This document shows, piece by piece, positions 18,791 through 46,961 of a DNA stretch of 64,000 bases. A program made the position numbers and the translations under genes. The DNA comes from Lachnospiraceae bacterium A4. GTDB lineage: Bacteria; Bacillota; Clostridia; Lachnospirales; Lachnospiraceae. The stretch's first letter is position 1, and the number at the start of each line of letters is the position of its first letter. Where the stretch lies: contig KE159527.1 of NCBI GenBank assembly GCA_000403215.2, forward strand, positions 382,114 to 446,113, read 5' to 3'. The notes beneath the pieces are model-generated. The model was not told the origin of the DNA. It did not search any database and worked only from the letters and a program-made list of their open reading frames with translations.

Positions 18791-18797
18791 TTATTCT

Positions 18798-20213: not shown

Positions 20214-20249
20214 CTCGATGCTCCCTTCAATTTTCACCTCGATACAATT

Positions 20250-22311: not shown

Positions 22312-23889
22312 TCATAAATTAACGATGATTTTCTCATACTCTTTATTAAAATTTAAATCTGGCTTTTGTTGTATACGATAGGCTCTGACACTTGTCTGTT
22401 TTTTCACGGTCATAATCATTTTTGGAATTTCTTTCATTGCTCTTTTACATTGAATCATCACCTCATCATTCTTCTCAGCATACGCTCTTATATACCATGA
22501 TAATAAAATCTGAAAATAATCTTCATATTCCTTTACTTTATATTTTCTAAGTTTCAAAACCTGTTTCCGATTTTCTATAAAAAGATCTACATTTCCTTCC
22601 TGTGCTGCTGCATTCGACTTGATTAAATACGCTGTATAAAGATATTGGTTATCCCTGAGCAATTTATCTGCATATTCTGCCGCACTCCTCAAATCTTCTG
22701 ACTGTAATAAATACTCCTGTTTATATTGTGCTGACAGTGGATTACACTTTATTGCATATTGATAATTACCCTGAGCTGCAAAGTACTGCGCCATTGTATC
22801 TGCAACAAACAATCCTGTGGCAGCAACTGTTCCAAAAACAATGATCCATCTCCATTTTAATAATTGTCTGCCAGTACAGACAACAGTTCCTTGGGGAAGC
22901 AGTAATAACACAATACATACAATACTTGTAAACTGTAAATGAAAATCAAAAAAACTACACACTGCAATTATGCTTAATAGCTCCTTTTGCATAGCTCCCA
23001 TTTTCTTCAACTTAAACTGCCTGATAAAATATACTACCAGTCCAATTCCTGCCAGCATTCCATAATCCAATAACCATTGCAGCCACTCATTATGCACAAA
23101 ACGAACGCTATATACCCCTGCCTGTACTGTCTGCTGCAAGTAAAAATATCCCATATAACCTAAACCCAATGGATGTTTTATCAACATCCTCAGCGCATCT
23201 TCCCAGTAAAGCAATCTTCCCTGCAATGTACTTGAATGGATATTTATTTTCATAAATCTGCCAAAACCGTATAAATTCTGTCCGCAGGTAACAGTAATAT
23301 AGATAATCAAACCAATTAGAGCTATCAATATCATAAAGGTTTTATTTTTCCCGTGACTTCTCAGAAAACAATAAAGCAAATAGAAGCAAAGTACTACAAA
23401 TACAGTTCTGCTGCCTGTCGCAATCACACCGGTTATCAACAAGAATTGAATAATACGTTTGCCCTGTTTCCATAACCTTTCTGCAACAATCACACCCAGC
23501 AGGAGAAATAGCGCCATTGTATTTGGATATTCAAATGGACCCGCAAGCCTCCCTGACGGCAGTGCAATCCAGTATCGAAACAATATACAGTCATGAAAGA
23601 GACTGCACACAGATAAAATGACTCCCAGCACAGGTATAGATGACAAGATGCGCTGCCTGTCTTTGTCCCTGATTTGTTGAAATGCCACCCCTGCAATCAG
23701 ATAAACACCTAATCTCAGAAGACCATATATACTTTCTCCCTTATCTATCCCTGTATAAACAGAAAGCAGACCGCCAGAAAAAATAACCACTTTCCAGACT
23801 CTCTCCTGCATAGTTTCTATGAGCAGTGATTTTCTCCTGATTATAATAAAACAGATATAGATCTGTGACAAAAACAATAAAACACTCAT
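22312..23889 (-). CDS. O-antigen ligase/polymerase-like membrane protein
   Basis: The 525-residue protein has about 10-12 membrane helices and the Wzy/WaaL-type motif. A segment reading GRLLYWEDAL is followed by HPLGLGYMGY and, after a short loop, VRFVHNEWLQWLLDYG (near 222-275). In this family the loop holds the residues that transfer or polymerise glycan. The C-terminal 130 residues are soluble and helical (TPR-like), an extension found in Firmicutes members. It probably handles a lipid-linked glycan in this operon. The start overlaps the preceding stop by 4 bp. Whether it acts as ligase or polymerase cannot be told. Confidence 0.83.
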   Translation of the reverse strand: MSVLLFLSQIYICFIIIRRKSLLIETMQERVWKVVIFSGGLLSVYTGIDKGESIYGLLRLGVYLIAGVAFQQIRDKDRQRILSSIPVLGVILSVCSLFHDCILFRYWIALPSGRLAGPFEYPNTMALFLLLGVIVAERLWKQGKRIIQFLLITGVIATGSRTVFVVLCFYLLYCFLRSHGKNKTFMILIALIGLIIYITVTCGQNLYGFGRFMKINIHSSTLQGRLLYWEDALRMLIKHPLGLGYMGYFYLQQTVQAGVYSVRFVHNEWLQWLLDYGMLAGIGLVVYFIRQFKLKKMGAMQKELLSIIAVCSFFDFHLQFTSIVCIVLLLLPQGTVVCTGRQLLKWRWIIVFGTVAATGLFVADTMAQYFAAQGNYQYAIKCNPLSAQYKQEYLLQSEDLRSAAEYADKLLRDNQYLYTAYLIKSNAAAQEGNVDLFIENRKQVLKLRKYKVKEYEDYFQILLSWYIRAYAEKNDEVMIQCKRAMKEIPKMIMTVKKQTSVRAYRIQQKPDLNFNKEYEKIIVNL

Positions 23890-25859
23890 AAATCCTCTAC
23901 ACAGTAGCCTTCCTCATCAAAGCTGTACTCTTTCCCATTTATTACTTCTATTGTGTCCTCATAAAAACTGCCATCCTTCAACTGGTATCTCCAGCCTGTG
24001 TCATCTTTTTTCCACCCTTCAACTGATACGCCCTCTCTCAAATATGATTTTAATCCAATTTTTTCTTTGGTCTCATCATCCTGAAAATGCCACCACTCTG
24101 AAAACAAATCATTGTACCCAGCTTCCTTCATATACTTTGCCAGCAAACGTGCATTATCATTGTTTTGTACAATTGCAGCATATGCACTCAAATCATGTAT
24201 GTAAGTCTGCATCTTGAGTTCTTCATTTGTATTCAGATCAACCAATGTGAGATCTAAAGCAATCCCCTTGTTATGTGCGGAAATTGATGCTGCTAAAAAA
24301 CTAGAAAGCCTGTATTTCCCATTATTTGTCATCATTTCACGCAGAGTAATTTCTGAATCCATCTGTTCACCTGCTATTGGCTGATCAATCACAGACTCCG
24401 TAATATCATAATAGTATCGCGTCGCCTCATTTGGACGAAAAGCGTCATAGATTCGAAAACGATAACCATCTTCAGCTGCATACTCTATTGCCCTGCACAA
24501 TTTTTCGGTACATGGATACAAATAAGGCACTAAATATTCACCATCACCGAGACATATGTTTTCATATCCTTTAATTACTTTTCCTGTAATACCCGGAATA
24601 TCATATCCATGTATCGAAGACATACTATGAACACTGCTGGTAATGTTATAATCACACAAATCACCTATATATTCGGGTAAATTAATCATGCAGTAAGATG
24701 AATCCACAAATCCAATACATTCCTTATAAAAAACCTTAAAATATCCATCTCTTTCCTCCAAAACGCATAGAGCTTCCCCCGCCGGAACTTCACCCAAACT
24801 TCTTTCTGAATCCGGGTTATCCAGAAGATGAAGCGGTATGATTGGCCATATCGTACAATACAATGGCGACATATCCGTATGAAATGTCACTTCTGAAGGT
24901 TCTGATTCAAACTCCTCCTGATCACGCTTATCAGGATCAATATAAGATATAACACGAAACCGAATCTGTCTGCTGGAAGGAAGATGTCCTGTCTGATAAC
25001 ACAGGTTTTCAGTCCGGTGAAAAATCTCTTTCGTTTGCCAGCGCTGCTCCTCTTGCAGCCATTGCTGGACTTCATACCACTCTCCCCGGCACACCTGCCA
25101 TGTTAATGCATACTGCCTTTCACTGGTCTGCTGCCATTCCAAAAACAGTTCTTTTTCCAGTAAATCTTCACGCTCAATCATAACGATATCAGACATTGGA
25201 CCATACAGTGTATAATCTTTCTCATGGCATACAGCACGCACAGCCACTTTAACTGGAGCATCATTTTCTGGCATTGGAATTTTATCATTAAAATCAAGCA
25301 TGATTTCATTGCCACTTATTTGTTCATATACCTGTCGTCTCCCATATTCATCAAACAGATATACTTCATAAGTATCTGCCATTTCAGCATTCCACGTAAT
25401 ATGTACTAACCTGCCTGCCGGGTCAGCTGACATATTCAGCTCAAGATCTCCAAAATCTACTGGCATGATCGTCAAGTCCCGCGAATAACCGGGAATTGCT
25501 ATCCCAAATCCAAATATTTTTATATAATTTACTGCCCTCAGACGTAGTTTCATATATTCTGTGATTGATTCGCCACTTAGAAGCATTGTCTGTCCCGTAT
25601 ATTCCCCACAAGGTAAATATTCTTTAGTCCATTCATCATATCTGTACAGACGGCATGCATCCAGTTTGAATGATGGTTTCCACGTAAGAGATATTGTATT
25701 ATTCTGAAAGAAGATATCTATATCATTCAACTCGTTTTTTAAATGGGTGTGCCATAAATAAAACATTATGCATACAACGATCCCTGCAATCACTGATCCC
25801 CATAAAATGGAATGTTCTTTTCTGTTTCCTCTACGCTTCCCACCTTTCCTTTTTTTCAA
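23886..25859 (-). CDS. VanX-like M15 peptidase with fibronectin-like, SH3-like and wall-binding parts
   Basis: The start is a TTG at 25859 with AAAGGAT upstream. The 657-residue product has an N-terminal anchor (about 15-35) and two to three fibronectin-III-like modules (about 45-340). An SH3-like stretch (about 355-400) leads to a peptidase M15 domain. The zinc and catalytic motifs are clear: SAHNKGIALDLTL near 525-537 and EWWHF near 590-594. They closely match the SxHxxGxAxDLTL and EWWHF of D-Ala-D-Ala dipeptidases (VanX). The C-terminus is an aromatic wall-binding-type repeat. It probably trims peptidoglycan stems or a D-amino-acid-containing surface polymer. The catalytic set looks intact. 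Confidence 0.85.
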   Translation of the reverse strand: MKKRKGGKRRGNRKEHSILWGSVIAGIVVCIMFYLWHTHLKNELNDIDIFFQNNTISLTWKPSFKLDACRLYRYDEWTKEYLPCGEYTGQTMLLSGESITEYMKLRLRAVNYIKIFGFGIAIPGYSRDLTIMPVDFGDLELNMSADPAGRLVHITWNAEMADTYEVYLFDEYGRRQVYEQISGNEIMLDFNDKIPMPENDAPVKVAVRAVCHEKDYTLYGPMSDIVMIEREDLLEKELFLEWQQTSERQYALTWQVCRGEWYEVQQWLQEEQRWQTKEIFHRTENLCYQTGHLPSSRQIRFRVISYIDPDKRDQEEFESEPSEVTFHTDMSPLYCTIWPIIPLHLLDNPDSERSLGEVPAGEALCVLEERDGYFKVFYKECIGFVDSSYCMINLPEYIGDLCDYNITSSVHSMSSIHGYDIPGITGKVIKGYENICLGDGEYLVPYLYPCTEKLCRAIEYAAEDGYRFRIYDAFRPNEATRYYYDITESVIDQPIAGEQMDSEITLREMMTNNGKYRLSSFLAASISAHNKGIALDLTLVDLNTNEELKMQTYIHDLSAYAAIVQNNDNARLLAKYMKEAGYNDLFSEWWHFQDDETKEKIGLKSYLREGVSVEGWKKDDTGWRYQLKDGSFYEDTIEVINGKEYSFDEEGYCVEDL

Positions 25860-25893: not shown

Positions 25894-27102
25894 TTATTGT
25901 ATGTTTGGATACAGCTCCCTGTCATAATTATGTGTGCCATTATGTGTCTTGGAGTACTTCATCAGTTCCTCATCTGTCAAATAAAAAAATGTAGCGCCGT
26001 CTGCCCGTCTGGTGGAATCAAAATGATGCCATCCTTCCCCAAGCTCGATGAGATTCCAGTAATGCATAGAATTATTTTTCCGTATTTTCTCAATATCCAT
26101 ATTTTTTATCCCTGCCCTTGTCAACAGGCACTTTGCAGTCATGGCATATGTATAACAATCTCCCTTTTGTTCCAGTATTCCCTGATATGCCCCTTCCACC
26201 CAATTCTCTTTAGACGCTCCATTAGAATATGCTATATGGTCATGACACCACCAGTATATTGTCTCTGCCTTTTCATATGGAGTCATAGCTTCATTTAAAA
26301 TCTCCGACAATAATCTGTCTGCCTCTGCATTAATAATCTCTTCTGTCACGGTCTCGGCTGTAATGGGCTTTACATGCAAAATGGTAGAAACAACGGTATT
26401 ATTTCCGGCTGAATCAGTTGCTGAATACGTCACACTATAATCTCCCGCTTTACTCGTATTAACATCTTTTGTATCTATTACAAGTTTTACATTTTTGTCA
26501 CAATTATCTGTGACTGTGACGCCTTTCTTATATTGAACACGCTCATTCGCGGTGATGGTGATTTCCTCTACGCCATTGATCTGAGGCGGTTCGTTATCAT
26601 GAATAACTTCCAGTTCAGCTTTCACTTCTGTTATATTTTTTCCCTCATCTTCAACCTCTATAATCACTGTATGAATACCTGTTGTCTCACAATCTGGCTG
26701 CGTTTGAAAGCGTACTGACGTTTTTGTCCTATCCATTATGGATTCTATAAAATCATCTGGCTGAATTTCAGTTCCTGAATAAATACAGACATTCTTTGTT
26801 GTAACCGTTGGCGCAATTGTATCTCTTACATGAATTACAGAAGCACTCTTTCTTCCATAAGCATAAATAACTACTCCATAATCTCCTATATTGTTCAATA
26901 CCGTTTTCTCATTTATGTCAGCAACAAAACAGGCATCTGAGTTCTCCCAATTCAGAAACTCTGTTATTTCAGGGCAGGGATCTCCTACTTCAGCCGTCAC
27001 TTCATACTTGATACAGTACACAGGCAGCAGCAGATATATGAACCAAAGCATCATAGAAAAAACAGCAGCTATCATACTGAAAAAACATATTTTAAGAATC
27101 AC
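25894..27102 (-). CDS. Transglutaminase-like protein with Ig-like (DUF5011-type) domains
   Basis: The start is a GTG overlapping the adenylating-enzyme stop by 4 bp. The 402-residue protein has one N-terminal membrane helix (5-30) and three Ig-like modules of the DUF5011 type (about 35-245). These carry repeated signatures such as RDTIAPTV, NEPPQI and YSATDSAGN. The transglutaminase-like domain follows (about 255-385). Cys lies in QKGDCYTYA, His in SMHYWNL and Asp in WHHFDST, so the active site appears complete. It should be anchored in the membrane and face outward. It is the second protein of this fold in the operon. Confidence 0.85.
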   Translation of the reverse strand: MILKICFFSMIAAVFSMMLWFIYLLLPVYCIKYEVTAEVGDPCPEITEFLNWENSDACFVADINEKTVLNNIGDYGVVIYAYGRKSASVIHVRDTIAPTVTTKNVCIYSGTEIQPDDFIESIMDRTKTSVRFQTQPDCETTGIHTVIIEVEDEGKNITEVKAELEVIHDNEPPQINGVEEITITANERVQYKKGVTVTDNCDKNVKLVIDTKDVNTSKAGDYSVTYSATDSAGNNTVVSTILHVKPITAETVTEEIINAEADRLLSEILNEAMTPYEKAETIYWWCHDHIAYSNGASKENWVEGAYQGILEQKGDCYTYAMTAKCLLTRAGIKNMDIEKIRKNNSMHYWNLIELGEGWHHFDSTRRADGATFFYLTDEELMKYSKTHNGTHNYDRELYPNIQ

Positions 27103-28607
27103 ATGAGAGAATTTTTTTTTAATTCTATTCTGTCAATCTTCCCATTTGCTGTTAATGGCATTTTATCCAGTCTTATGATACGATTTGGAAGCATGTATCC
27201 CGGAAGCATGTCTTTTATTGCGTTTTTCACCTCTTTGTGCGTGCTGTTTCCGGTATAATAAAGCACTATTTTATCCCGATTCCCATCATAAATACATCCT
27301 GCCAGTTCAACTTCTTCTAGCATATTGGCATATGCCTCAATCTCACCTAACTCGATTCTATGTCCCATATGTTTAATCTGGGAATCCTTTCTGGATACAA
27401 ACACAAGCTCACCATATTTATTGAATTGTCCAATATCCCCTGTTTTGTAGACAATCTCAGGATAAGCATCATTTAAAGGGTTTTGGACAAAGGCATTTCT
27501 TGTTCTTTCCATGTCTTTATAATATCCATGTGAGACGCCTGTACCTCTGATATATATTTCTCCGCATTCACCATCTTTCGCTTCTTCATTGTTTTCATTT
27601 ATTAATAATATTGCTGTATTTTTAAACGGTTTTCCTATTGGTATCACTTCATCGGCGTGAATTTCCCGTTCTATCTTATAATAGCAGCAGACTCCTGTCC
27701 CCTCTGTCGGACCATACAGATTCACAAACACTGCATTAGGCAAAACTTTTTTCCAACGGTTAAACTGCTTTACAGGAAATACTTCACCTGCAAATGCAAC
27801 TGTATGTAAATATTTCGGAACTGCTTCATCAAAAGTTCCCAATGATGAAATCATTGTCAGCGCTGAAACTACCCAGCATATTGTATTAATCTGATACTTG
27901 TTAAGAAATTCTACCAGCTTTATCGGAAACAAAAACAAGTCTCTCGGCAACAAATATGTCGTAGCGCCAAACTTTAGTGTCGGATAAATTTCTTTTAGGC
28001 ATGCATCAAAATACAATGGTGCCTGATTGCCAAATACTGTATCTTCCCCAAATGCCAGCACCTCCGAAAGCTGCTCAATATAATCAATAATGCTCCGATG
28101 ACATCCTGTTACTCCTTTCGGAATCCCTGTGGAACCGGACGTGAATACAACATAGACAAGATCTGTATCTATAGCAGAATCCCGCACGCACGCCAATGCC
28201 TGATCATCTATCTGGGTCTCACATATATCATCATAGACAATGATCTCTCCCTCAAACTCAAACTCCTTTGCAGTCTCAAAAGTATCTCTGTCACAGATCA
28301 TCATCTTAGCGCTCAGATTTTTAATAATTAATTCAATCCTCATCTTTGGCATTTCTGCGTCCATGGGCACATAAAAACATCCTGCTGCCACTACTCCATA
28401 AAATGCTGTTACCATTTTAGGATGTTTGTTCATAAAAACCACAATGGGTTCTTTATAATTTCCCTTCTGATATATCCATGTTCCAACAGCCCTGCTCAAA
28501 TCAAAAACCTCGCGGAAAGTTAATTTATCTATACCATCAGAAAATGCAATTTTATCTGGTTTGCTGTTTACAATCTCGTCTAAATAATCTAATACATTGT
28601 TTTGCAT
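27099..28607 (-). CDS. Amino-acid adenylating enzyme (DltA/NRPS A-domain-like), stand-alone
   Basis: This 502-residue AMP-forming ligase activates an amino acid with ATP and should load it on the carrier protein at 32789-33019. The motifs are in order: FTSGSTGIPKGV (155-166), YGPTE (298-302), YKTGDIG, GHRIELGEIE, and the catalytic Lys in TANGKID. The frame opens at 28658, but ATG 28607 fits the family N-terminus and avoids overlap. The inferred specificity positions are Asp201, Ala202, Lys205, Cys244, Ala271, Ala273, Leu297, Gly305 and Val306. They differ from DltA, which has a Cys where Ala273 is. A pocket Lys suggests an acidic side chain. It is flanked by a racemase gene 5 bp upstream. Confidence 0.88.
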   Translation of the reverse strand: MQNNVLDYLDEIVNSKPDKIAFSDGIDKLTFREVFDLSRAVGTWIYQKGNYKEPIVVFMNKHPKMVTAFYGVVAAGCFYVPMDAEMPKMRIELIIKNLSAKMMICDRDTFETAKEFEFEGEIIVYDDICETQIDDQALACVRDSAIDTDLVYVVFTSGSTGIPKGVTGCHRSIIDYIEQLSEVLAFGEDTVFGNQAPLYFDACLKEIYPTLKFGATTYLLPRDLFLFPIKLVEFLNKYQINTICWVVSALTMISSLGTFDEAVPKYLHTVAFAGEVFPVKQFNRWKKVLPNAVFVNLYGPTEGTGVCCYYKIEREIHADEVIPIGKPFKNTAILLINENNEEAKDGECGEIYIRGTGVSHGYYKDMERTRNAFVQNPLNDAYPEIVYKTGDIGQFNKYGELVFVSRKDSQIKHMGHRIELGEIEAYANMLEEVELAGCIYDGNRDKIVLYYTGNSTHKEVKNAIKDMLPGYMLPNRIIRLDKMPLTANGKIDRIELKKNSLM

Positions 28608-28612
28608 GATTG

Positions 28613-29329
28613 TTATAAGGTGATCAGTTTTCTGTATTCGGCTCTTAACCGTCCACACTTTTGTACAGTTTTTGCAGCCAGCACTTCCATAACATCAAGA
28701 TATCCTGTTCCAATTGGAAAGTCTTTTTTAATCAAAGACAATTCTGTACATGCCAAAATAACCACCTGTGCTCCTTTCTCATTCAACTCTGCGGACACGC
28801 GTCCAAACCTTTCTATGTCTACTGTTTTACCTTCCTTTATATCGTGATAAATCATATCTGTAATAATTTGTTGCATTTCTTTGTCTGGAATCTCACTGGA
28901 AATTCCATACCCTTCCAATACCCTTTGAAATATTTGACTTTGTATGGTTCCCTCTGTCGCTAAAATTCCCACATGCTTAATCCCCCTGTTCCAAAGGCAG
29001 ACTGCTGTTTCCTCAACGGCATTCATCACAGGCAGCCCCACTTCATCTTGTAACTCATCATGAAAAAAGTGTGCTGTGATACATGGAATCGCCAAAATTC
29101 CTGCCCCCAGCTGTTTTAACTGTTTTCCAGTCCATATCATTTCTGAAAGCGGGGACTGTACAGACTTTCCTAATATGTAATTCGTCCTGTCTGGTATGGA
29201 AGGTTTGCTGATCATGTAAATCTCCATATGTTCCTGATCTGTCCGTGCTTCGCTCATTTGTGTCAGCAATTGCATGAAATATGCTGTTGCCATGGGGCCC
29301 AATCCACCTATTATTCCTAATTTTTTCAT
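28613..29329 (-). CDS. Aspartate/glutamate racemase family protein
   Basis: This 238-residue cofactor-independent racemase inverts amino acids through two cysteines. The N-terminus GIIGGLGPMAT is typical of the YgeA/RacX/aspartate racemase branch. The first catalytic Cys is in PCITAHFF near 83-90 and the second in LACTEL near 195-200. The protein is cytosolic. It sits 5 bp before the adenylating enzyme, so it most likely supplies the D-form of the amino acid that the enzyme activates. Substrate range in this family reaches beyond Asp and Glu, so the amino acid is not fixed by homology. Confidence 0.9.
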   Translation of the reverse strand: MKKLGIIGGLGPMATAYFMQLLTQMSEARTDQEHMEIYMISKPSIPDRTNYILGKSVQSPLSEMIWTGKQLKQLGAGILAIPCITAHFFHDELQDEVGLPVMNAVEETAVCLWNRGIKHVGILATEGTIQSQIFQRVLEGYGISSEIPDKEMQQIITDMIYHDIKEGKTVDIERFGRVSAELNEKGAQVVILACTELSLIKKDFPIGTGYLDVMEVLAAKTVQKCGRLRAEYRKLITL

Positions 29330-29359
29330 GTTTTTACACGCTGCCTTCCTTACTACATG

Positions 29360-31201
29360 TTAAACAGAAAGATGGAACTGCTCACATAACATGGTAACTG
29401 TCATTACAATCAACAGATAATCAATCTCATAGGCTCCCATCAGTTTAAAATCATTCTGTCTGTACACATCCTTCATTTTTTTTACATAATTTAAATCAAA
29501 TAGATTATATTTTTTTATCATATCATCATTGAGCAATTCCCCCTTGCAGGATTTTTTTATCATTTCCGACATCCCCGGCGCCTGAAAAGGAAATTTCTTC
29601 CTTTTGAGAATTGCCTCCGGTACAATCCCCTCACCCGCTTTCTTTAATATGTACTTTTCATTCACTCCATTTAATTTATATTTATCTGGAATGCATGACA
29701 CAAAAGTCAACAGTTCCATATCAAGAAAAGGATGCCGCCCTTCCACTGAATGTGAAAAAAACATACGGTCTCCATGCTCTCCCAGCAAATGATCCGAAAG
29801 CCGGAGCTTATAGTCAATATAAGAACGTCTTTTTTGACTGCTAAGTCCCCTGACACGTTCTACATTGATTGGGCTATCCGCGATTGCAGAAAACTTTTCT
29901 GCCTCGCAGCGAATATCTGCACTATAGATTAGGTGATGCATTTTCTCTATTTCTGAATGATTGCGTTCATACCGAAAATATGGATCTCCCCATAATCTCT
30001 CATTCACCTCACACTCCTCAAGGGACATGACATTCTTCCGCATTCCACGAAACTGATCCACCATATATCCTACATAACCACAGAAAAATTCATCTGAGCC
30101 CTGTCCTGTCAGAACTGCTTTGGCTGGTGAATCCTTTACCAAAGCGGACAATAGATACGCTGCTACATCATAACTCTCCTTCAATCCGGCTTCAGCATGA
30201 TAGACAACCTGTCCCAGATTCTCCCATAAGTTTTCTTCTGTGATTCTTGTCCTATAATGTGTTGAATGTACACAATCACAAATGACTTTTTGAAACTGAC
30301 TTTCATCCAACTCATCAGAATCCATCTCAGCCGAAAAAGAATAAGAACTGTTCATCCCATATTGTGCTATGCAGCAGGCTACCATAGAACTGTCAAGACC
30401 GCCGGAAATATAAAACCCAATCGGCACATCCGCCACCAGTCTTCTGTCAATGGCATTCTTTAACAGCTCACGCAAGTTTTCGATATAATACTTTTCTCCC
30501 CTGTCCTTCTCCTCCTCTGTCTGATAAACCAAATCCCAGTATTCAATATCCTTTAATTCCCCGCCTATTCTGCTACAGATCATATGTCCACATGGCAGAG
30601 CGTAAATCCCTTCAAAAAATGTATTTGGAGAGATTACGCCGGGATAATTCATTAATTGATCCACCGCTTTTAAATTCAGCCTTCTGTTCACTCCGGGATA
30701 TTGTAAAATTGCCTTGATCTCAGAGGCGAATACCAGTTTTCCATTCACCACAGTATAAAACAACGGTGCAATACCAATTTGATCTCTTACCAGCAAGAAC
30801 TGTTGTAATTTATGGTCATACAATGCAATCGCAAACTGACCATTCAAATAGGATGGAAAATCCAGCCCCCATTCTTCATAAAGATGCAGAATAACCTCCA
30901 CATCTGTTTTGGTACGAAACAAATGTCCTTTCTCTTTCAATTCGGTGCGCAGCTTTTGAAAATTATAAATCTCCCCGTTGCAGACCATAGAAATTGTTTT
31001 ATCCTCATTTTGAATTGGCTGCATGCCACTTTCCAAATCAATAAAACTAAGACGGTTAAATCCGAGTGCTATTTCGTCCATCATTAAACTGCCGCTGCCA
31101 TCTGGTCCCCGGTGAAACATCGTCTTTAACATATTTTCCAAAATATACTTTTCATTCTTTTTATCATTCATCAGGTTAAATATTCCGCAAATTGCACACA
31201 T
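29360..31201 (-). CDS. asnB: Asparagine synthase (glutamine-hydrolysing) family
   Basis: ATG 31201 is chosen because the mature N-terminus must begin with the nucleophile (Met-Cys2: MCAICGIFNL). An in-frame TTG 18 bp upstream is rejected. The 613-residue product has the class II glutaminase domain (HRGPDGSG near 34-41) and the synthetase domain with PP-loop SGGLDSSM near 255-262. Normally it makes Asn from Asp, Gln and ATP. Here it lies within an amino-acid-loading cassette and next to the racemase. It could supply a cosubstrate or amidate an acidic residue on a surface polymer. Relatives in polysaccharide clusters amidate sugar acids. Confidence 0.9.
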   Translation of the reverse strand: MCAICGIFNLMNDKKNEKYILENMLKTMFHRGPDGSGSLMMDEIALGFNRLSFIDLESGMQPIQNEDKTISMVCNGEIYNFQKLRTELKEKGHLFRTKTDVEVILHLYEEWGLDFPSYLNGQFAIALYDHKLQQFLLVRDQIGIAPLFYTVVNGKLVFASEIKAILQYPGVNRRLNLKAVDQLMNYPGVISPNTFFEGIYALPCGHMICSRIGGELKDIEYWDLVYQTEEEKDRGEKYYIENLRELLKNAIDRRLVADVPIGFYISGGLDSSMVACCIAQYGMNSSYSFSAEMDSDELDESQFQKVICDCVHSTHYRTRITEENLWENLGQVVYHAEAGLKESYDVAAYLLSALVKDSPAKAVLTGQGSDEFFCGYVGYMVDQFRGMRKNVMSLEECEVNERLWGDPYFRYERNHSEIEKMHHLIYSADIRCEAEKFSAIADSPINVERVRGLSSQKRRSYIDYKLRLSDHLLGEHGDRMFFSHSVEGRHPFLDMELLTFVSCIPDKYKLNGVNEKYILKKAGEGIVPEAILKRKKFPFQAPGMSEMIKKSCKGELLNDDMIKKYNLFDLNYVKKMKDVYRQNDFKLMGAYEIDYLLIVMTVTMLCEQFHLSV

Positions 31202-31215
31202 ATCCTTTATTCCCT

Positions 31216-32784
31216 TCAAAATTGATTATATATAAACTGATTTGCATCATATCCTATGCCATATGCTCCCATGAGCAGCACAATCAAAAACAAACTATAC
31301 CACAATACAAAACGTATCGGATACGGCAGACGGGCAATCTGGGTTCTGACACTTCCCCCACGCTGAAGAAGGCTTACCATCACCATGATCAGTATCCCCA
31401 CAGACAAAATCAAATAATCGTATAAGGACAATCCCAGTTCTGCCAGAGAACCATCCAGCAAAATATTCCAGTTATGGACAGTTAAAATTGAACCAAACGC
31501 GCGAAATGTATCTAACACATTTTCATAACAATCAAAAAGATTTAAGCAGCAAACCAGCATAAAGGTACGTCCCATTTCAAATAATTGATATGCTTTGAAT
31601 CTCCTGAACATTGGATAGCGTACATGAAAACGCTCATATAGCGGTTCTAACTCTTCTGATACCATTAAGATAATCCAGTTCGCAATACCCCACACAACAA
31701 AATTCCAGCTTGCCCCATGCCAAATACCAGTGACAAACCATACAATAAAAGAAGCTATGTACACCGGCAGCCGTCTGCCCAATCTGTAAATTTTCCGCAT
31801 CATCTTACTGGACGAGACTGGATAAAAAATATAGTCCCTGAACCACGAGCACAACGAGATATGCCATCTGCGCCAATATTCTTTCAACGATTTGGAAAAA
31901 TAAGGCCGTATAAAGTTTTCCTGTACACGAATACCCATGGCTTCTGCAATACCGATCGTAATATCAATGCCACCTGTAAAATCTGCATATAACTCTATTG
32001 TGTAAAATAGCATCCCTATAAAACAGTAAGCACCACGATACTCACCTGTATTCTGAATAATCGTGCTGACTCCTGTCATGATGCGGTCTGCAATTACCAT
32101 CTTTTTAAAATATCCCCAGAGCATTCTCTGCAATCCCCTGCAAAAATTTTCTGCCTTAAAAGAATGCCCACCGTATAGTGTTTTTGACAGATCCCCATAG
32201 CGGCTGATAGGTCCCTGAATTACCTGTGGAAAAAAAGAAATAAACAAGGCAAACTTAAAAATATTTTTTTCTGCGGGTATCGTTGTGCGGTAAACATCGA
32301 TCAAATATCCCAATGCCTGAAATGTATAAAAAGAAATTCCCATAGGAAGGATTACTGTTAGAAAAGAAATCTGTCTATCATTTCCAGTACCCTTTAATAT
32401 CCAGTTAAAATTGGATATTAAAAAATTTCCGTATTTTACTACTGTAAGAATTCCTATATTTAACACAAGACCAACTATCAGCCATCGGAAACGCGTCTTC
32501 CCCCGTCTCTCCCTGTAAGCCTTCCGCTCCTCCTTCGTCATCTCTGTCTGATGTTCATTCAGATATTTTTTCTGTTGTAATGCATTGTGTTCTATATAGA
32601 TTGCACCAATATATACAGTGATTGTTGTCACTAAAATATACATCAGGTTTTTAATACCAGAAACACAATAAAACAAATAACTTGCCAACAGCAGAACCTG
32701 CCACTGAAATCTTTGGGGAATAAGATAATATACCAAAAATAATACAATCAGAAACCCAAAAAATGCATAGGAAACAAAAAGCAT
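31216..32784 (-). CDS. MBOAT family O-acyltransferase (DltB/AlgI-like)
   Basis: The 522-residue polytopic membrane protein carries the MBOAT segments FYTFQALGYLIDVYR, EYWRRWHISLCSWFRDYIFYP and FVTGIWHGASWNFVVWG, the last with the catalytic His. A basic loop of about 35 residues (near 75-105) lies early in the chain. It follows the carrier-protein gene by 4 bp, as dltB lies next to dltC in Dlt operons. It is therefore the likely transferase that moves the thioester-bound amino acid across the membrane or onto a surface acceptor. The gap to the asparagine synthase gene is 14 bp. Confidence 0.93.
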   Translation of the reverse strand: MLFVSYAFFGFLIVLFLVYYLIPQRFQWQVLLLASYLFYCVSGIKNLMYILVTTITVYIGAIYIEHNALQQKKYLNEHQTEMTKEERKAYRERRGKTRFRWLIVGLVLNIGILTVVKYGNFLISNFNWILKGTGNDRQISFLTVILPMGISFYTFQALGYLIDVYRTTIPAEKNIFKFALFISFFPQVIQGPISRYGDLSKTLYGGHSFKAENFCRGLQRMLWGYFKKMVIADRIMTGVSTIIQNTGEYRGAYCFIGMLFYTIELYADFTGGIDITIGIAEAMGIRVQENFIRPYFSKSLKEYWRRWHISLCSWFRDYIFYPVSSSKMMRKIYRLGRRLPVYIASFIVWFVTGIWHGASWNFVVWGIANWIILMVSEELEPLYERFHVRYPMFRRFKAYQLFEMGRTFMLVCCLNLFDCYENVLDTFRAFGSILTVHNWNILLDGSLAELGLSLYDYLILSVGILIMVMVSLLQRGGSVRTQIARLPYPIRFVLWYSLFLIVLLMGAYGIGYDANQFIYNQF

Positions 32785-32788
32785 GGTT

Positions 32789-33019
32789 TTAATTTTCCTC
32801 CTCCAGTTTCTGGATCAGGGCATATAAATTCTTTGCCGAATTAAAATTGTCAGGAATAATATATTTTGCCGAAATCGTCACATCAAACACTTCCCCAATT
32901 TCTGCAATCAATGTTACAATATCGAACGAATCTAATATCATGTCATTGATGAGTCTTTCCTGACTTAAAAAATCCACCTCTGGATGCAGGTTGTTTAAGA
33001 TTTCTAATAACTTTTCCAT
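32789..33019 (-). CDS. Acyl/D-alanyl carrier protein (DltC-like)
   Basis: This 76-residue four-helix carrier protein has the phosphopantetheine attachment Ser in LDSFDIV (near 30-36). ATG 33019 is chosen since AGGAG precedes it by 9 bp and the length then matches the family. An in-frame ATG at 33040 overlaps the lipoprotein stop. It should carry the amino acid activated by the enzyme at 27099-28607. The neighbours, MBOAT downstream and SGNH protein upstream, reproduce the Dlt set. Confidence 0.9.
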   Translation of the reverse strand: MEKLLEILNNLHPEVDFLSQERLINDMILDSFDIVTLIAEIGEVFDVTISAKYIIPDNFNSAKNLYALIQKLEEEN

Positions 33020-33032
33020 TCTTCTCGTCTCC

Positions 33033-33602
33033 TCATTCATCTAATATTGTTGTTTTATACTCTATAGAGGATACAAAATCCCCCTCTGTGATAAAACAGA
33101 GTTTCATGTCATCTTTGCAATATACTGTCATGCCATTTTCTTGTATTGAATCCCCTCCATAAGTCTCTGTCAGTTTTTCCACAGAATCACCAATCCCGAT
33201 TCCTTCCATCGTGGTAACCGTGTCGTCCTTAAACAGTACCGAAGAAATAAAATCTTCACCGTCTAAAGGATATGTATCCAATTCAAAACTGTTATAGGTG
33301 TATATTTTATCAATTCCGTCAAATGCACAGCTGGGTGCTTCAAAATATGAATTTGGCTCTCCTAACTGTTCTAAAACAGAATCAGCAGCAGAATCAATTT
33401 CTATCACCACATCATTATATACAAACACATAACCTTTATAATCTGCTGTTTCTCTTACAACACTTCCATCATTTTCTGACAGCTCCTGTATTGCAGCCTG
33501 CTCATTTTCAACAGTTTCATCCGAAACTGTTGTTTCGTTATTTCTGTCACTACAACCCGATACCAACAGAGAAAACAAAATTAATATCAATCCCTTTTTC
33601 AT
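33033..33602 (-). CDS. Lipoprotein
   Basis: The 189-residue lipoprotein has a signal peptide with lipobox LVSGC, so Cys17 should be lipidated. A Glu/Asn-rich linker runs to about 60. The rest is a small domain with two similar halves. Each has a strand, then an LEQLGEP or LTETYGG turn, which suggests an internal duplication. The family is not recognised. The start overlaps the SGNH gene's stop by 4 bp and the end lies just before the carrier protein, so it is part of the cassette. It may assist the transferase outside the membrane. Confidence 0.82.
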   Translation of the reverse strand: MKKGLILILFSLLVSGCSDRNNETTVSDETVENEQAAIQELSENDGSVVRETADYKGYVFVYNDVVIEIDSAADSVLEQLGEPNSYFEAPSCAFDGIDKIYTYNSFELDTYPLDGEDFISSVLFKDDTVTTMEGIGIGDSVEKLTETYGGDSIQENGMTVYCKDDMKLCFITEGDFVSSIEYKTTILDE

Positions 33603-34636
33603 TCTATGCTCCTTTCGTTCAGGCTCCTGTATTGTCTCTGCGCATCCATATCATACATTTTACGCTTCTCTTTCCATCCTTCAGCCAACTCAGGTACATT
33701 CCGCTTGTCGCTGACATTCGTGTTTTCTATCAGATACCTGCCTAAGTATTTTGTCAGCTTTTCCGCACCGGATAAATTCATATGAAGTCCCCCATCATAG
33801 GTATCCATACTGTAATCAATTCCTGTCTCTTCGATGTGTTCTAAAAAATTGATATAGAAAAGATTCTTTTCCTTAGCATAATCCTCTATCTGTTTTTCCC
33901 ATTCATCATACCAAAAAGGATATAGCGATGGCGCCTTAATCAACACGAGCTGGATATTATTTGTCTCACAAAGCTCCACAAGCCGATCGAGATACTGACA
34001 GGCGTTTTCTCCAAATTGATAGTTTCCCATAGGTTTTGCTTCAGGAATATTTTCAGCCGGCTTTACATCTACACGCATATAATACCCATTATGCGATACG
34101 AGTGGCTTCTCAAACATATATTTTATATCATCCTTGGATAGCTCACTCCACCTAGAATGATACCGCAGAATCGGAAATACATAATCCAGAAAATTTTCAC
34201 TGTCAGTCATCGAAGCTTTAATTGACTTTATCTTTGCCCATGACCATTCCATCCCATCCAGAGTCATCCTGTTATAAGCTTCTCTTTGTGGTTTATCAAC
34301 ATGCATTGACTGAACATTAAAAATAACTACTTTGGGAGTCTCATATCGCAATGTATCCTCCAACAAATAATACGACTGCCAGATCAATTGTTCAGCACTT
34401 CCTCTAATATAACTGTTAATTCCAAAATCATCCCATAAAACCTGCGGGGAAAAATTTTCATATACCTCACAGTCTCCAATAAAGATTACATCATGCTTTT
34501 TTTCCTGCTGATAATATTCTGCGATCATCGCCCCTTCCACGATATTTGATACATACTTTGGGAGAAGAAGCCTTTGCAGAAGATATAGACTTCCCACAAC
34601 AATAAATGCACTGAAAATAATCACTTTTTTATTCAT
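33599..34636 (-). CDS. SGNH-like membrane-anchored protein (DltD-like role), nucleophile position Cys
   Basis: ATG 34636 with upstream AAGG is chosen. The frame also opens at 34696 inside the zinc-ribbon gene. The 345-residue product has one N-terminal helix (4-22) and an extracellular SGNH-type fold. Block I reads FIGDCEVYENF (near 52-62), where the usual Ser of GDS is Cys56. The last block, DGGLHMNLSG, offers the Asp/His pair. In Dlt systems a membrane SGNH-like protein (DltD) is needed for the final transfer, and the order SGNH, lipoprotein, carrier, MBOAT here suggests the same job. Confidence 0.82.
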   Translation of the reverse strand: MNKKVIIFSAFIVVGSLYLLQRLLLPKYVSNIVEGAMIAEYYQQEKKHDVIFIGDCEVYENFSPQVLWDDFGINSYIRGSAEQLIWQSYYLLEDTLRYETPKVVIFNVQSMHVDKPQREAYNRMTLDGMEWSWAKIKSIKASMTDSENFLDYVFPILRYHSRWSELSKDDIKYMFEKPLVSHNGYYMRVDVKPAENIPEAKPMGNYQFGENACQYLDRLVELCETNNIQLVLIKAPSLYPFWYDEWEKQIEDYAKEKNLFYINFLEHIEETGIDYSMDTYDGGLHMNLSGAEKLTKYLGRYLIENTNVSDKRNVPELAEGWKEKRKMYDMDAQRQYRSLNERSIE

Positions 34637-38417: not shown

Positions 38418-38849
38418 TTACTCCTGTTTGCTGCCGCAATTCCCGCAGAATACTGCCCCTTCCGCCAACACAGCACCACAATTTTTGCAGATATTTTCAT
38501 TTCCAATTGTATTCATTAACACTTCCCTGTTCATTTCTGCCCTGCTTCTGGAAACTTCGCTGCCACAATTAGGACAGATATTAATGTTTCTAATTTCATT
38601 TACTTTATCTGTATCAGATTGTATATTTTCCTGAAGTATTTCTATTTCTTTTCTTTTGCCCGAAACTTCCGCATCCTCCACCAAAAGACCTTCTTTAATC
38701 ACATATTCCCCTATCTGTGTATATAAATCTTTCATATTCTGTGTATATGTACTGATCTCTACATTTAGGCGTGTAACCTCTGCCATTTCTTTGCTTTTAG
38801 AAATCGCCGCCTGTGTTGCCCTGCTAAATTTTTCACCCCAATTTGCCAT
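38418..38849 (-). CDS. Zinc-ribbon protein with N-terminal coiled coil
   Basis: The 143-residue protein has a helical N-terminal two-thirds (10-90) and two CxxC pairs near 92-130 (CPNCGS and CKNCGA), ending with a further CGNCGS. This is a typical double zinc ribbon of small Firmicutes membrane-associated adaptors, but no membrane helix is present here. Function unknown. It lies 3 bp before the TPR/LRR gene and 16 bp after the small membrane-protein gene. Confidence 0.85.
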   Translation of the reverse strand: MANWGEKFSRATQAAISKSKEMAEVTRLNVEISTYTQNMKDLYTQIGEYVIKEGLLVEDAEVSGKRKEIEILQENIQSDTDKVNEIRNINICPNCGSEVSRSRAEMNREVLMNTIGNENICKNCGAVLAEGAVFCGNCGSKQE

Positions 38850-38865
38850 TCTTATCTCCTCTCTG

Positions 38866-39246
38866 TCACTGATTAATCTGTAATGATTTTCGGTAACACT
38901 GATATGCTAAATATCCAAAAAACAAAAGATTTATAATACCTCCCCAGTTCATTGCATGAAATTTCAAAAGACTAAGAAGCGTAGGATATACATGCATCAG
39001 CGCATATATTCCAAGTCCAATAAAAGCCATCTTGAATCTGCATTCAGACAATACCAAAAGCACCATAAAGAAAAATCCAAGATAAGACACTGTCTGCATT
39101 ACACCCCCCAACGCAATAAAATACCCCATTACCTGAAATGCAACACAGATCAGCATGATTGGAATACTAATCGGAATTAATATCCTTATAATTGGATTCT
39201 GCTTAAAAAATGTGTTCATTGACTGGCAAACCTGTTCAAATTTCAT
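38866..39246 (-). CDS. Small polytopic membrane protein
   Basis: ATG 39246 follows the site GGAGG at good distance. A further in-frame ATG at 39261 lies before that site. The 126-residue product has four hydrophobic segments (about 22-42, 46-65, 70-88 and 95-112) after a short soluble N-terminus. No family is recognised. It belongs to the operon by spacing. Confidence 0.78.
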   Translation of the reverse strand: MKFEQVCQSMNTFFKQNPIIRILIPISIPIMLICVAFQVMGYFIALGGVMQTVSYLGFFFMVLLVLSECRFKMAFIGLGIYALMHVYPTLLSLLKFHAMNWGGIINLLFFGYLAYQCYRKSLQINQ

Positions 39247-39272
39247 CCTATATTCCTCCATTGTTGTATGAT

Positions 39273-39410
39273 TTATTTTTCACTGCTGCTGATATCTTTT
39301 TTTAATTTGCTTCTCTGAACTGCAAATACTTTTGATAAAAACAGCATTATAATAATACCCAACACAGCGCCTGCGGCACCTCCATAGTGCATCAGCATTC
39401 CCATTGTCAT
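39273..39410 (-). CDS. 45-residue single-helix membrane protein
   Basis: This short frame starts at ATG 39410 with GGAGGG 9 bp upstream. It encodes a Met- and Gly-rich hydrophobic helix (about 8-28) followed by a basic tail (QRSKLKKD). It lies 5 bp after the kinase stop and 26 bp before the next gene, filling what would otherwise be a gap. This spacing and the site support translation. The family is unknown. It may be an accessory subunit of a membrane complex. Confidence 0.65.
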   Translation of the reverse strand: MTMGMLMHYGGAAGAVLGIIIMLFLSKVFAVQRSKLKKDISSSEK

Positions 39411-39415
39411 TCGTT

Positions 39416-41611
39416 TTATCCCTCCAGCCATCCACCAGATATCAATTGCTCATACATCTGTTGTAACCATTGAATCTCTACATCATTCGTTTCCAGTTTT
39501 GTTTTTTTATACATATCCATCGTCGTATTGTAATATTTTGCAAACTGTCTGTAATCCCGTTCTTCGTTTGGTATGGTTCCCTGAATATCCGCCTCGAGAA
39601 CGGCAAGTCTTTTATAATATATATAATTGTCAGCATCTTTTCCAATCAATTCATTCAGGACTGCTTCCGCCTCCCTCAATCTGCCTGACTTTTGCAGCAA
39701 AATGGCTTTGTTCATGTGTGTCGTGTCATTATCCCAGCCATGTTTAATGATTTCTTCCAGAACTGCCAGTGCATTTTCATCGTATTGCTCATTTCCTGTG
39801 ATGGATGCTAAATCTATATAATCCTGTGCCAGTCTCTCAAAAACCAGCAATTGATCTCCCAATTCCACATCTGTCGTTGCTTTTATGAGCAGCTCTGTTG
39901 ATTCCTGTAAGATCTCTTCTGTATCTCCTTTCTTTCTGAACGTTTTATCGCACAGGATATATGCCCGTAGCTTCATTGTCTGATTCGTCGTCGAATCAAT
40001 ACATTCCTTGAAATGAGCGATCGCCTCATCATACTTTCCTTTTGCAGATTCAATCTCAGCACTGACAAGCAGCACATAATCAGAGCCCATTCCCCGTTCC
40101 CTTCCCTGCCGCAATACTTCTTCTGCGTTATCTATCCTGCCGCAATACACTAACGAAATTGCATAATCCCCATAATACTGACTGACTTGTCCATTACGCT
40201 CCACTGCTGCCTGATAATATACCACTGCCTCTTTGTATTCCTCTAATTCAAAATAGCAGTTTGCAATCAGATAATACGTATCATCTGCAAAATCCTGACC
40301 TGAAAGAGAAGTTTGATTTAACAGATTTTCCTGTATAAACAATATATTTTCTTCGTATCTGCACTGTTCTGTAAGATAAACTGCCTTCTGATAATGCGCA
40401 TCCAGTTTTTCCGGCATCAGTGTACAGGCTTTTTCATACAGCGATTCAAACTGTGCAGAATCATTTTCCCTTGCTATTGTCAATTCTGTTATTATTGCAT
40501 CATACTCTTCAAGCTGTTCCACCTTCATTCTCTGTTCACCAAGAAAAAACATCAGCACGGATGCTCCTATAAAAAGCACCATCGCAAAATACGCAATCTC
40601 TTGTTTGATAATCAGTATTTTGTATTTTCTGTCATACTTATGGATTTTTTCCAAAGCCTGAAGCATTTCTCCTGCATTCGCAAATCTTCTGTCGGGCTCT
40701 GCCTCCATAGCCTTATTAATGATAACACTGAAACCATTGCTGTATCCTTCCGCTATATTTTCAATCGGGAGATTCTTTTCCGGTTCTGTACTTGGCCGTA
40801 CTCCTGTAGCCAGATGATACATCGTCGCACCTATACTGTATACATCTGCTCTGAGATCTATCTTGATGACAGAGTTATCCAGTGTAATGCTCTCTCGTTG
40901 TTTGACTGGTGACGTTGTTTTGTCTTCCTTCAGATAATCAGACATTACTGTCAATGCTTCTGTTGCATCATTTTTCGCACTCATGGGCGTTTGCTGCAAT
41001 ATTGTTTTCTCTTCCGACGTTCTGACTGATTGCTTTGTATAGAAAGCACTGTTTTCTAACGATTGCACTGCCTGACATTGTTCCGGTGAAGCATACCCTT
41101 CCGAATATCCTACCGTTACCATAGTACCCTCTGATAAAAAACCTGCTATATTGAAATCGATCAGACATATATTATCATCTGGCTTTAACATAATGTTAGC
41201 CGGTTTGATATCTCCATGTAAGACAGGCGGTTTCTGTTTATGAAGATATGCCATTACTTCACAAAGCTGCCTTGTATACTTCAATATTTGTTTATTTGAA
41301 AAAAGTACTTTTTCTTTTATCAGCTGTTCAAATGATTTCCCATCAACAAAATCCATAACCGTATATACATCATTTTCAATTTTCAGGAAATCAAATACCT
41401 GTGGTAAATACTCATGATGCAGATTTTTTAGAATATCTGTCTCCATTCTTTCATCCAGTATCCCATGAACCTGTGTACGCATTTTCTTTAGGACGACATA
41501 TTTTTGAAGACGCTGATGGTATGCCTTGAAAATCACACCTCCTCCACCTGAACCAATCTCCGTTATATCGCTATAAAGTCCTTTAAATTCTTCCCTTGAA
41601 GTTCCTGTCAT
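39416..41611 (-). CDS. Membrane Ser/Thr protein kinase with TPR C-terminus
   Basis: The 731-residue protein starts with a PknB-type kinase domain. The glycine loop GSGGGGVIFKA lies near 20-30, the ATP-binding Lys in VVLKKM (39-44), and the catalytic loop HGDIKPAN at 132-139. The metal-binding segment is IDFN (151-154, DFN instead of DFG), and YASPEQ is at 173-178. About 75 Ser/Thr/Lys/Glu-rich residues (179-252) are inserted before helix F (DVYSIG). A single membrane helix near 339-357 is followed by TPR units to the end. It should phosphorylate targets read by the two FHA proteins of this operon, and the PP2C phosphatase lies 14 bp upstream. Confidence 0.9.
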   Translation of the reverse strand: MTGTSREEFKGLYSDITEIGSGGGGVIFKAYHQRLQKYVVLKKMRTQVHGILDERMETDILKNLHHEYLPQVFDFLKIENDVYTVMDFVDGKSFEQLIKEKVLFSNKQILKYTRQLCEVMAYLHKQKPPVLHGDIKPANIMLKPDDNICLIDFNIAGFLSEGTMVTVGYSEGYASPEQCQAVQSLENSAFYTKQSVRTSEEKTILQQTPMSAKNDATEALTVMSDYLKEDKTTSPVKQRESITLDNSVIKIDLRADVYSIGATMYHLATGVRPSTEPEKNLPIENIAEGYSNGFSVIINKAMEAEPDRRFANAGEMLQALEKIHKYDRKYKILIIKQEIAYFAMVLFIGASVLMFFLGEQRMKVEQLEEYDAIITELTIARENDSAQFESLYEKACTLMPEKLDAHYQKAVYLTEQCRYEENILFIQENLLNQTSLSGQDFADDTYYLIANCYFELEEYKEAVVYYQAAVERNGQVSQYYGDYAISLVYCGRIDNAEEVLRQGRERGMGSDYVLLVSAEIESAKGKYDEAIAHFKECIDSTTNQTMKLRAYILCDKTFRKKGDTEEILQESTELLIKATTDVELGDQLLVFERLAQDYIDLASITGNEQYDENALAVLEEIIKHGWDNDTTHMNKAILLQKSGRLREAEAVLNELIGKDADNYIYYKRLAVLEADIQGTIPNEERDYRQFAKYYNTTMDMYKKTKLETNDVEIQWLQQMYEQLISGGWLEG

Positions 41612-41625
41612 GTAAGTATTTCTCC

Positions 41626-42324
41626 CTAATTTTTATCTGACTTTACTGCCACTATCACCATTGACAAATTGTCCTTTGCTCCGTTCTGATACACCCGTTT
41701 TTTAATCTGTCTGGCTACTGTCAGACCTTTTTTCCAAACCAGACTTCGGAGCTCAAAAAAAAGATAGCAATTTTCACAATATTTATATACTCCATCACTG
41801 CACATAAAAAAGTGTGTCTTTTTTTCTATTACGCCTGTACATATATGAACAAATAATTCTTCCTGAGCGCCTAATGCCTGTGTTAAACCATCAAAAGAAA
41901 AATTATCATCTGTAGTCATCAATATACATGACCATTTCTGGCATCGATAAAGCCTGCTGTCCCCCACATTTATAACTGCATATGTATTCTTTTGAATCAG
42001 CAGCAGACACAATGTTGTGCCTCCCAGCTGATTCATTTCATAGTACATTCTATAAACATCCTTGTTTATATCTCTAATTTTCTTTTCCAATGCAGCAACA
42101 ATCTCTAAAAACGGTATAGAAAGAATGCATTCTTGGATTTCCTCCCACCATTTTCTCAACAAAGAGACTGCTGACTGACTTGCCAGTTCTCCTTTATAAT
42201 GGCCACCCATACCATCTGCTACTGCAAAAAGCCCTGCGTGTTCTGTATTTAATGCAAGTACAGAGTCTTGGTTATTCTGGCGGCATAACCCAGTCTCTGA
42301 CATTGCCATAATATCCAATATCAA
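41626..42324 (-). CDS. PP2C-family protein Ser/Thr phosphatase
   Basis: The start is a TTG at 42324 with GGGAG 7 bp before it. The 232-residue product carries the metal-binding motifs of PP2C enzymes: NNQDSVL near 17-23, VADGMGGH near 35-42, NVGDSRLY near 116-123, SDGVYKYCE near 174-182 and KDNLSMVIV near the end. It is soluble and cytosolic. It should reverse phosphorylation by the adjacent kinase. It lies 13 bp after the VWA-FHA gene and 14 bp before the kinase gene. Confidence 0.93.
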   Translation of the reverse strand: MILDIMAMSETGLCRQNNQDSVLALNTEHAGLFAVADGMGGHYKGELASQSAVSLLRKWWEEIQECILSIPFLEIVAALEKKIRDINKDVYRMYYEMNQLGGTTLCLLLIQKNTYAVINVGDSRLYRCQKWSCILMTTDDNFSFDGLTQALGAQEELFVHICTGVIEKKTHFFMCSDGVYKYCENCYLFFELRSLVWKKGLTVARQIKKRVYQNGAKDNLSMVIVAVKSDKN

Positions 42325-42337
42325 AATTCATCTCCCG

Positions 42338-43909: not shown

Positions 43910-43940
43910 CGTTTATCCTCCTCCAACCATATTTAATATT

Positions 43941-44231: not shown

Positions 44232-44241
44232 TTCTGCTCCT

Positions 44242-44481: not shown

Positions 44482-44512
44482 CTTCCAGTCCCTTTTATTC
44501 TTAAATCAGCCT

Positions 44513-44543
44513 GATTCAAGGCTGCGAAATGCATCCTTGAATC
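44513..44543. other. Intra-operon inverted repeat
   Basis: GATTCAAGG and CCTTGAATC form a 9 bp perfect stem with a 13-base loop in the 92 bp gap between the lipoprotein gene and the next small gene. No T-run follows on the minus strand. It may be an RNA processing or stability element that adjusts expression of the distal operon. Confidence 0.4.
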
Positions 44544-44573
44544 TGACTGTATACATCGTTTCAATCCATCATG

Positions 44574-46577: not shown

Positions 46578-46600
46578 ATATGCCCCTCTCTGAATGAATC

Positions 46601-46906: not shown

Positions 46907-46961
46907 ACCATTCTCCTCCTTATTTATACTTTAAAATTATCTAGTGATATTTTTAATTATT

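Follow-up and report, generated by a model that had tools for sequence, protein, structure and literature searches.

The window analyzed here, 64,000 nucleotides of Lachnospiraceae bacterium A4 (positions 382114–446113 of contig KE159527.1; host assembly of 6.96 Mb in 40 contigs), carries on its minus strand a cassette reminiscent of the D-alanylation (Dlt) system: an adenylating enzyme, a carrier protein, an MBOAT acyltransferase and an SGNH-fold protein, accompanied by a racemase, an AsnB-type amidotransferase, a lipoprotein and a transglutaminase-like protein. The cassette is probably (roughly 0.8) an aminoacyl exporter supplied by a carrier protein and distinct from Dlt, and there is about an even chance that the exported amino acid is D-aspartate, amidated where AsnB is present.

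An earlier note on this DNA had named seven genes in 27099–34636. All seven exist as uninterrupted genes of a single strand, in tandem from 34636 to 27099, and neighbors are separated or overlap by anywhere from a few bases to some tens. The starts proposed for the SGNH protein (34636) and the carrier (33019) fit relatives better than the longest open reading frames (ORFs); AsnB starts at 31201 (MCAICGIF, giving Cys2), while 28607 is the probable start of the adenylating enzyme. The extent proved too narrow, since it omits a transglutaminase-like gene (27102–25894) which overlaps the adenylating-enzyme gene by 4 bases and encodes Ig-like and transglutaminase-core domains. The features, all on the minus strand, are:

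33599–34636, minus: SGNH-fold acyltransferase, DltD/PatB-like role, with GDC (Cys replacing the nucleophile Ser); from predicted-model fold matches and Cys76 conservation
33033–33602, minus: lipoprotein, beta-rich fold weakly like DUF4309/CAP-associated domains; from 79/90 loci and a predicted model
32789–33019 (longest ORF to 33040), minus: aminoacyl carrier protein, Ser within a DSFD motif; from sub-cut-off matches, the motif and relatives of 75–84 aa
31216–32784, minus: MBOAT acyltransferase with its own C-terminal acyl-shuttle motif FIYNQF; from a PF03062 match and the C-termini of relatives
29360–31201, minus: AsnB-type glutamine-dependent amidotransferase, Cys2, TGQGSDE for SGEGSDE, optional member; from a TIGR01536 match and alignment
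28613–29329, minus: aspartate-type racemase independent of pyridoxal phosphate (PLP), both catalytic Cys and R48/K164-type residues conserved; from a TIGR00035 match and alignment
27099–28607 (longest ORF to 28658), minus: stand-alone amino-acid adenylating enzyme, pocket code DAKCAALGVK; from a TIGR01733 match, motifs and a tree
25894–27102, minus: transglutaminase-like surface protein with N-terminal hydrophobic anchor, Ig-like domains and C/H/D triad; from a domain match and 85/90 loci
23886–25859, minus: M15 (D-Ala-D-Ala peptidase-type) protein, a recurrent neighbor of uncertain membership; from a domain match and recurrence

Conservation and rearrangement of the cassette

The SGNH protein served as bait. 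Orthologues (E ≤ 1e-100) are found in 25 of 150 sampled genomes of the family, the host's own included, and a scan of species-level genome contigs returned at least 574 coding stretches related to it, of which the best 80 were kept, a choice that favors close relatives. The neighborhoods analyzed are those of 40 bait regions from the family and order together with these 80 loci. Neighboring genes were labeled by their best blastp match to the window proteins (E ≤ 1e-4) and counted only if located on the SGNH strand and no more than 9 kb away; AsnB matches below 50% identity were dropped, and the racemase of L133, lying slightly past 9 kb, was left uncounted. After removal of four loci fetched twice, 27 of 117 loci were dropped whose clusters end 1,200 bases or less from a sequence end, leaving 90 complete loci, the window included.

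The SGNH gene, present at all 90, is accompanied by MBOAT at 89, the transglutaminase-like gene at 85, the lipoprotein at 79, the carrier and the adenylating enzyme at 78 each, the racemase at 64 and AsnB at 18. Seven genes count as main ones (transglutaminase, racemase, adenylating enzyme, carrier, MBOAT, SGNH, and lipoprotein). They are kept together at 55 of the 90 loci in 12 orders, AsnB and doubled transglutaminase genes being ignored, so the clustering is no chance event. The commonest order, in the sequence just listed (TRACBDL), accounts for 30 of the 55, and the racemase gene immediately precedes that of the adenylating enzyme at 51 of the 62 loci having both; when content and order are mixed, 37 distinct gene strings are found over 89 loci. 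This reshuffling without loss is strong evidence for a joint function. The gene set, its conservation, and the catalytic residues and motifs described below are read directly from the sequences. Two additions to a Dlt operon had been singled out earlier, and they fare differently: the racemase (64/90) is, like the transglutaminase-like protein, a main member, whereas AsnB (18/90) is an accessory one.

Among the best 80 of the at least 574 relatives, 37 are labeled Lachnospiraceae, and others bear genus names such as Acetatifactor, Roseburia, Butyrivibrio, Oscillibacter, and Gemmiger; the cassette is also found in Gottfriedia endophytica (Bacillaceae; L197). In a phylum-wide sample of 398 genomes, three have the SGNH orthologue (E ≤ 1e-70), each of them from the host's family, and viral contigs yield a single racemase relative at 32% identity.

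Seven loci (L112, L114, L115, L119, L127, L128, and L131) keep the transglutaminase, MBOAT, SGNH protein and lipoprotein and have no recognized adenylating enzyme, carrier or racemase, which suggests that the outer machinery can run on another acyl supply. At L115 (8522–9779) the MBOAT appears as two overlapping ORFs. At L210 (394–7968) two long ORFs (1276 and 1242 aa) precede the carrier, and the cassette has no recognized adenylating enzyme. M15 peptidase-like proteins like that of the window also lie near the cassettes of L059 and L127 (one genome), L060, L115, L132, and L204, a recurrence which hints at peptidoglycan.

Membrane machinery and candidate substrate

The MBOAT matches PF03062 at 55 bits (cut-off 27), and WH motifs occur in the commonest MBOAT segments listed. 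A FIYxx[FY] motif is present in all 39 of the 39 MBOAT C-termini of relatives listed (FIYNQF in the window), and corresponds to the C-terminal FXYXXF acyl-shuttle motif of MBOATs as defined in the accessible text of PMC12148441. Because the enzyme carries its own shuttle, DltX would not be needed. Its SGNH partner gives only weak GDSL matches below the cut-off, and a profile of it finds no relative among PDB sequences (best E 0.079); the AlphaFold model (predicted local distance difference test, pLDDT, 83) matches GDSL enzymes, PatB and DltD. At the catalytic serine position, Cys76 is invariant in 40 of 40 sequences and found in 23 of 24 orthologues of another set, and serine is found in five of five distant paralogues. 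A cysteine nucleophile in an SGNH enzyme was found neither in a search of the open-license literature nor in the accessible part of PMC9487903, and the cassette would offer a natural test of one. The lipoprotein model (pLDDT 84.5) has a best fold match of E 1.2e-3.

The adenylating enzyme reaches 325 bits against TIGR01733 (cut-off 317) and contains the motifs TSGSTG, YGPTE, TGD, and NGK. Its pocket code reads DAKCAALGVK in the window; most cassettes have DAKCAGLGMK (81 of 98 rows, duplicates included). The pattern DA[KR]C, referred to below as the code, occurs in 89 of 94 enzymes (one, L142, with its first letter unread), and position 239 is Lys or Arg in 90 of 94. Lysine at this position occurs in glutamate-activating domains, making an acidic substrate plausible. 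The carrier has the DSFD serine, but none of its matches reaches a cut-off (best 32.6 bits, cut-off 80). At L124, L125, and L126 a divergent adenylating enzyme with a phenylalanine-rich code (e.g., DVHFFAMHVK) occurs with no racemase; perhaps the same export machinery handles another amino acid there.

The racemase scores 200.8 bits against the aspartate-racemase model TIGR00035 (cut-off 93.1). Its best PDB match is the Pyrococcus horikoshii aspartate racemase (158.8 bits; glutamate racemases 28), and glutamate-racemase models give 25–34 bits with cut-offs of 147–328. R48, C83, T85, K165, C194, and E196 are invariant in 22 of 22 aligned cassette racemases. The gene is present at 61 of the 72 complete loci with the code and at none of the five with other codes (Fisher p 2e-4). 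Furthermore, nine of 12 tested genomes with a racemase-less cassette encode an aspartate racemase elsewhere (155–276 bits). These 12 come from 17 racemase-less code-bearing loci, and two of the 12 (L150 and L188) lie near contig ends. An aspartate racemase (E ≤ 1e-30) is found in 14 of 125 control genomes of the family without the SGNH orthologue; the 12 were drawn differently and span a wider taxonomic range than these controls. The comparison of family genomes with and without the orthologue (17/25 vs. 14/125) is partly circular, 14 of the 17 being of the cassette's own type. Given the basic pocket residue and the aspartate-type racemase, D-aspartate is the leading candidate substrate.

The amidotransferase combines Asn_synthase and GATase domains (TIGR01536 435.6 bits, cut-off 267.1) with the Cys2 glutaminase and PP-loop motifs. 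Its orthologues (64–73% identity, E ≤ 1e-200) occur in six of 397 family genomes, the host included, all six inside the cassette. All 27 aligned cassette enzymes read TGQG[SA]DE where Escherichia coli AsnB has SGEGSDE, so that the glutamate is replaced by glutamine throughout. The corresponding Glu-364 of human asparagine synthetase contacts the alpha-carboxylate via water in a model, and the E364Q variant of the enzyme is reported to be inactive with L-aspartate (PMC6748925, accessible part). Because of this replacement, a plain asparagine synthetase appears unlikely, and the change would suit a substrate in which a thioester occupies the alpha-carboxylate. The earlier note had left two roles for the enzyme, feeding the pathway or amidating its product; the replacement favors amidation of an intermediate over feeding. 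In the Lactococcus wall, AsnH amidates D-Asp only once it is attached, which lowers sensitivity to cationic antimicrobials (PMC4155827, in the part accessible). AsnB was also considered as a main gene of the cassette, a candidate rejected on its counts (18/90 loci, 6/397 genomes), and as the sole AsnB-type enzyme of the cell, likewise rejected, the genome encoding three more such proteins.

Several observations weigh against D-aspartate. Enzymes with other codes number only five, some of them related to one another, and 11 of the 72 complete code-bearing loci have no racemase. Among the racemases sought elsewhere in the genome, G440 and G583 give only weak matches, and in G580, one of the nine positives, a stop codon interrupts the match. 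In place of a racemase, the transglutaminase gene of G065 includes a domain resembling PLP decarboxylases. Lysine 239 also occurs at L129, which has no racemase, and in the non-cassette enzymes L215 and L222. The pocket code itself was placed by hand on GrsA numbering, and no characterized adenylation domain is known to have this code. AsnB scores above the asparagine synthase cut-off. Finally, with 189.3 bits the racemase falls just short of the cysteate-racemase (CuyB) cut-off of 190, so its substrate need not be aspartate.

This G065 domain, similar to PLP-dependent decarboxylases (151 bits for TIGR03099 and 148 for lysA, neither reaching its cut-off), forms a single ORF with the cassette transglutaminase (L101:7713–11057), and the cassette has no racemase.

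The same architecture could serve D-cysteate, D-glutamate, or another acidic or polar D-amino acid, with a broad racemase. Besides the near miss of the CuyB cut-off, a basic residue at position 239 would suit any acidic side chain, and the pocket code is not known to match any described one. The closest solved relatives of the racemase are aspartate racemases, however, with glutamate-racemase models scoring low, and an AsnB at 18 of 90 loci fits a conversion of Asp to Asn; a substrate other than aspartate is therefore a possible but rather unlikely alternative.

If D-aspartate is the substrate, the racemase would convert L-aspartate to D-aspartate, which the adenylating enzyme would activate and load as a thioester onto the carrier. 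At loci with AsnB, this enzyme would amidate the side-chain carboxylate left free on the activated aspartate, probably while the residue is carrier-bound, so that an aspartyl group of no net charge becomes a cationic asparaginyl one. Next, the MBOAT would carry the aminoacyl group through the membrane to the tyrosine in its C-terminal FIYNQF motif, and the Cys-SGNH protein would accept it from there as a thioester and deliver it to an outer-face acceptor, either a wall glycopolymer, peptidoglycan or a surface protein. The lipoprotein and the transglutaminase-like protein would work outside on the acceptor or the product. We infer the substrate, its stereochemistry, the order of amidation and the acceptor; by analogy, a wall polymer is the most likely acceptor. 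The simplest model proposed earlier, a racemase-supplied, carrier-fed MBOAT/SGNH route to the surface, holds up in part, as a Dlt-like route with a dedicated racemase (64/90 loci, aspartate-type) distinct from D-alanylation.

A fuller picture, which we regard as speculative, is that of a new Lachnospirales-centered envelope modification, in which D-aspartyl groups are tuned by AsnB to D-asparaginyl on the carrier, shuttled by the MBOAT tyrosine and handed over by the Cys-SGNH protein, while a surface transglutaminase may link proteins or glycans to the wall via the installed residues. Were the proposed pathway correct, these gut bacteria would display on their surface a D-amino acid distinct from D-alanine, with a charge that AsnB can set, with a bearing on encounters with antimicrobial peptides and host immunity.

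Relation to D-alanylation and other known systems

The closest likeness is to DltXABCD, which likewise combines an adenylating enzyme, carrier, MBOAT and SGNH protein and uses a carrier-bound aminoacyl thioester as donor (PMC12148441, accessible text). The cassette differs in its own adenylation-domain group and pocket, its aspartate-type racemase, its Cys-SGNH protein, a shuttle fused to the MBOAT rather than located on DltX, and the addition of a transglutaminase, a lipoprotein and an optional AsnB. It might nonetheless be a divergent D-alanylation operon with the racemase and AsnB as passengers: the roles of the A, C, B, and D genes agree, and the equivalog models for DltA (TIGR01734, 291 bits, cut-off 559.85) and DltB (TIGR04091, 156.9 bits, cut-off 375) match, although below their cut-offs. 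Moreover, a curated DltA (TIGR01734 above cut-off) was found in none of the 21 cassette genomes examined, leaving the niche open. The carrier scores 27.4 bits against the DltC equivalog model (NF003464, cut-off 68). In a tree of 20 chosen rows, however, seven code-bearing cassette enzymes form one group (100/99) and seven DltA-type enzymes, three above the cut-off and four slightly below, another (100/100); four other-code cassette enzymes fall within the wider group of code-bearing ones, not together. The DltA-type pocket reads DL[ML]..C.V.K in six of the seven, the seventh (L241) having Asp for Cys, and this Cys at position 301 is absent from the cassette enzymes. From these sequences, the adenylating enzyme is judged not to be DltA. 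Since the racemase, unneeded for D-alanine, is also retained through the rearrangements, the shuttle is fused to the MBOAT and the SGNH serine is replaced by cysteine, a D-alanylation operon is an improbable explanation.

MBOAT–SGNH O-acetylation pairs such as PatAB share the C-terminal FxYxxF shuttle feeding an SGNH transferase, but use acyl-CoA without a carrier (PMC12148441, accessible text), where the cassette has a carrier and an adenylating enzyme. The cassette would unite two mechanisms so far separate, the carrier-fed Dlt route and the acyl-CoA-fed MBOAT–SGNH pairs. The racD–aslA–asnH genes for the D-Asp/D-Asn cross-bridge of Lactococcus resemble it in combining an aspartate racemase with AsnB-type amidation of incorporated D-Asp (PMC4155827, accessible part); there, an ATP-grasp ligase adds D-Asp, in contrast to the adenylating enzyme, carrier, MBOAT and SGNH protein used here.

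Ligase, amidotransferase and PLP decarboxylase genes go together in exosortase-A (XrtA/PEP-CTERM) exopolysaccharide clusters. The cassette ligase (TIGR03098, 195 bits, cut-off 592), the amidotransferase (TIGR03108, 363 bits, cut-off 817) and the L101 decarboxylase-like domain (TIGR03099) match the models of these clusters, all far below cut-off. This resemblance, together with best PDB matches of the adenylation domain to nonribosomal peptide synthetase (NRPS) adenylation domains rather than DltA, would suit a small NRPS-like cluster for a secreted aminoacylated metabolite or lipid instead of polymer modification, which we doubt strongly given the conserved MBOAT/SGNH pair with its shuttle motif, surface transglutaminase and lipoprotein, and no condensation or thioesterase domain in the cassette proteins scanned.

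No description of the gene set was found among the open-license papers listed, most subscription papers lying outside the search; the open-license literature yielded nothing on D-aspartate with an adenylation domain, carrier protein and teichoic acid, nor for the exosortase-cluster query. In the accessible parts of related papers, PMC10642750 treats dltDABC of Clostridioides difficile, and PMC12419801 mentions SGNH/MBOAT neighbors of another family.

Genomic surroundings in the window

The cassette lies inside a low-GC stretch (window 16001–54000, 38.5% GC; flanks 49.6 and 47%), which suggests that this stretch was acquired as a block. Upstream of the cassette and on the same strand, a type VII secretion-like locus (window 38418–52182) encodes an EssC/FtsK-type ATPase with FHA, two WXG100 proteins, an FHA-vWA protein, PP2C, a Ser/Thr kinase-TPR protein and a zinc-ribbon protein. 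A link between this locus and the cassette was rejected because it looks local: in the fetched stretches of 80 loci, such genes, recognized by match to the window's own, lie near only L132, L133, L135, L170, and L174. A metagenome-assembled genome from rabbit gut (L132) retains part of the window's arrangement. The same island carries a second MBOAT (C-terminus FIYFRF) adjoining an AlgX-like SGNH protein (window 17393–20237), which looks like an ordinary O-acylation pair; MBOAT matches in the host genome number nine in total.

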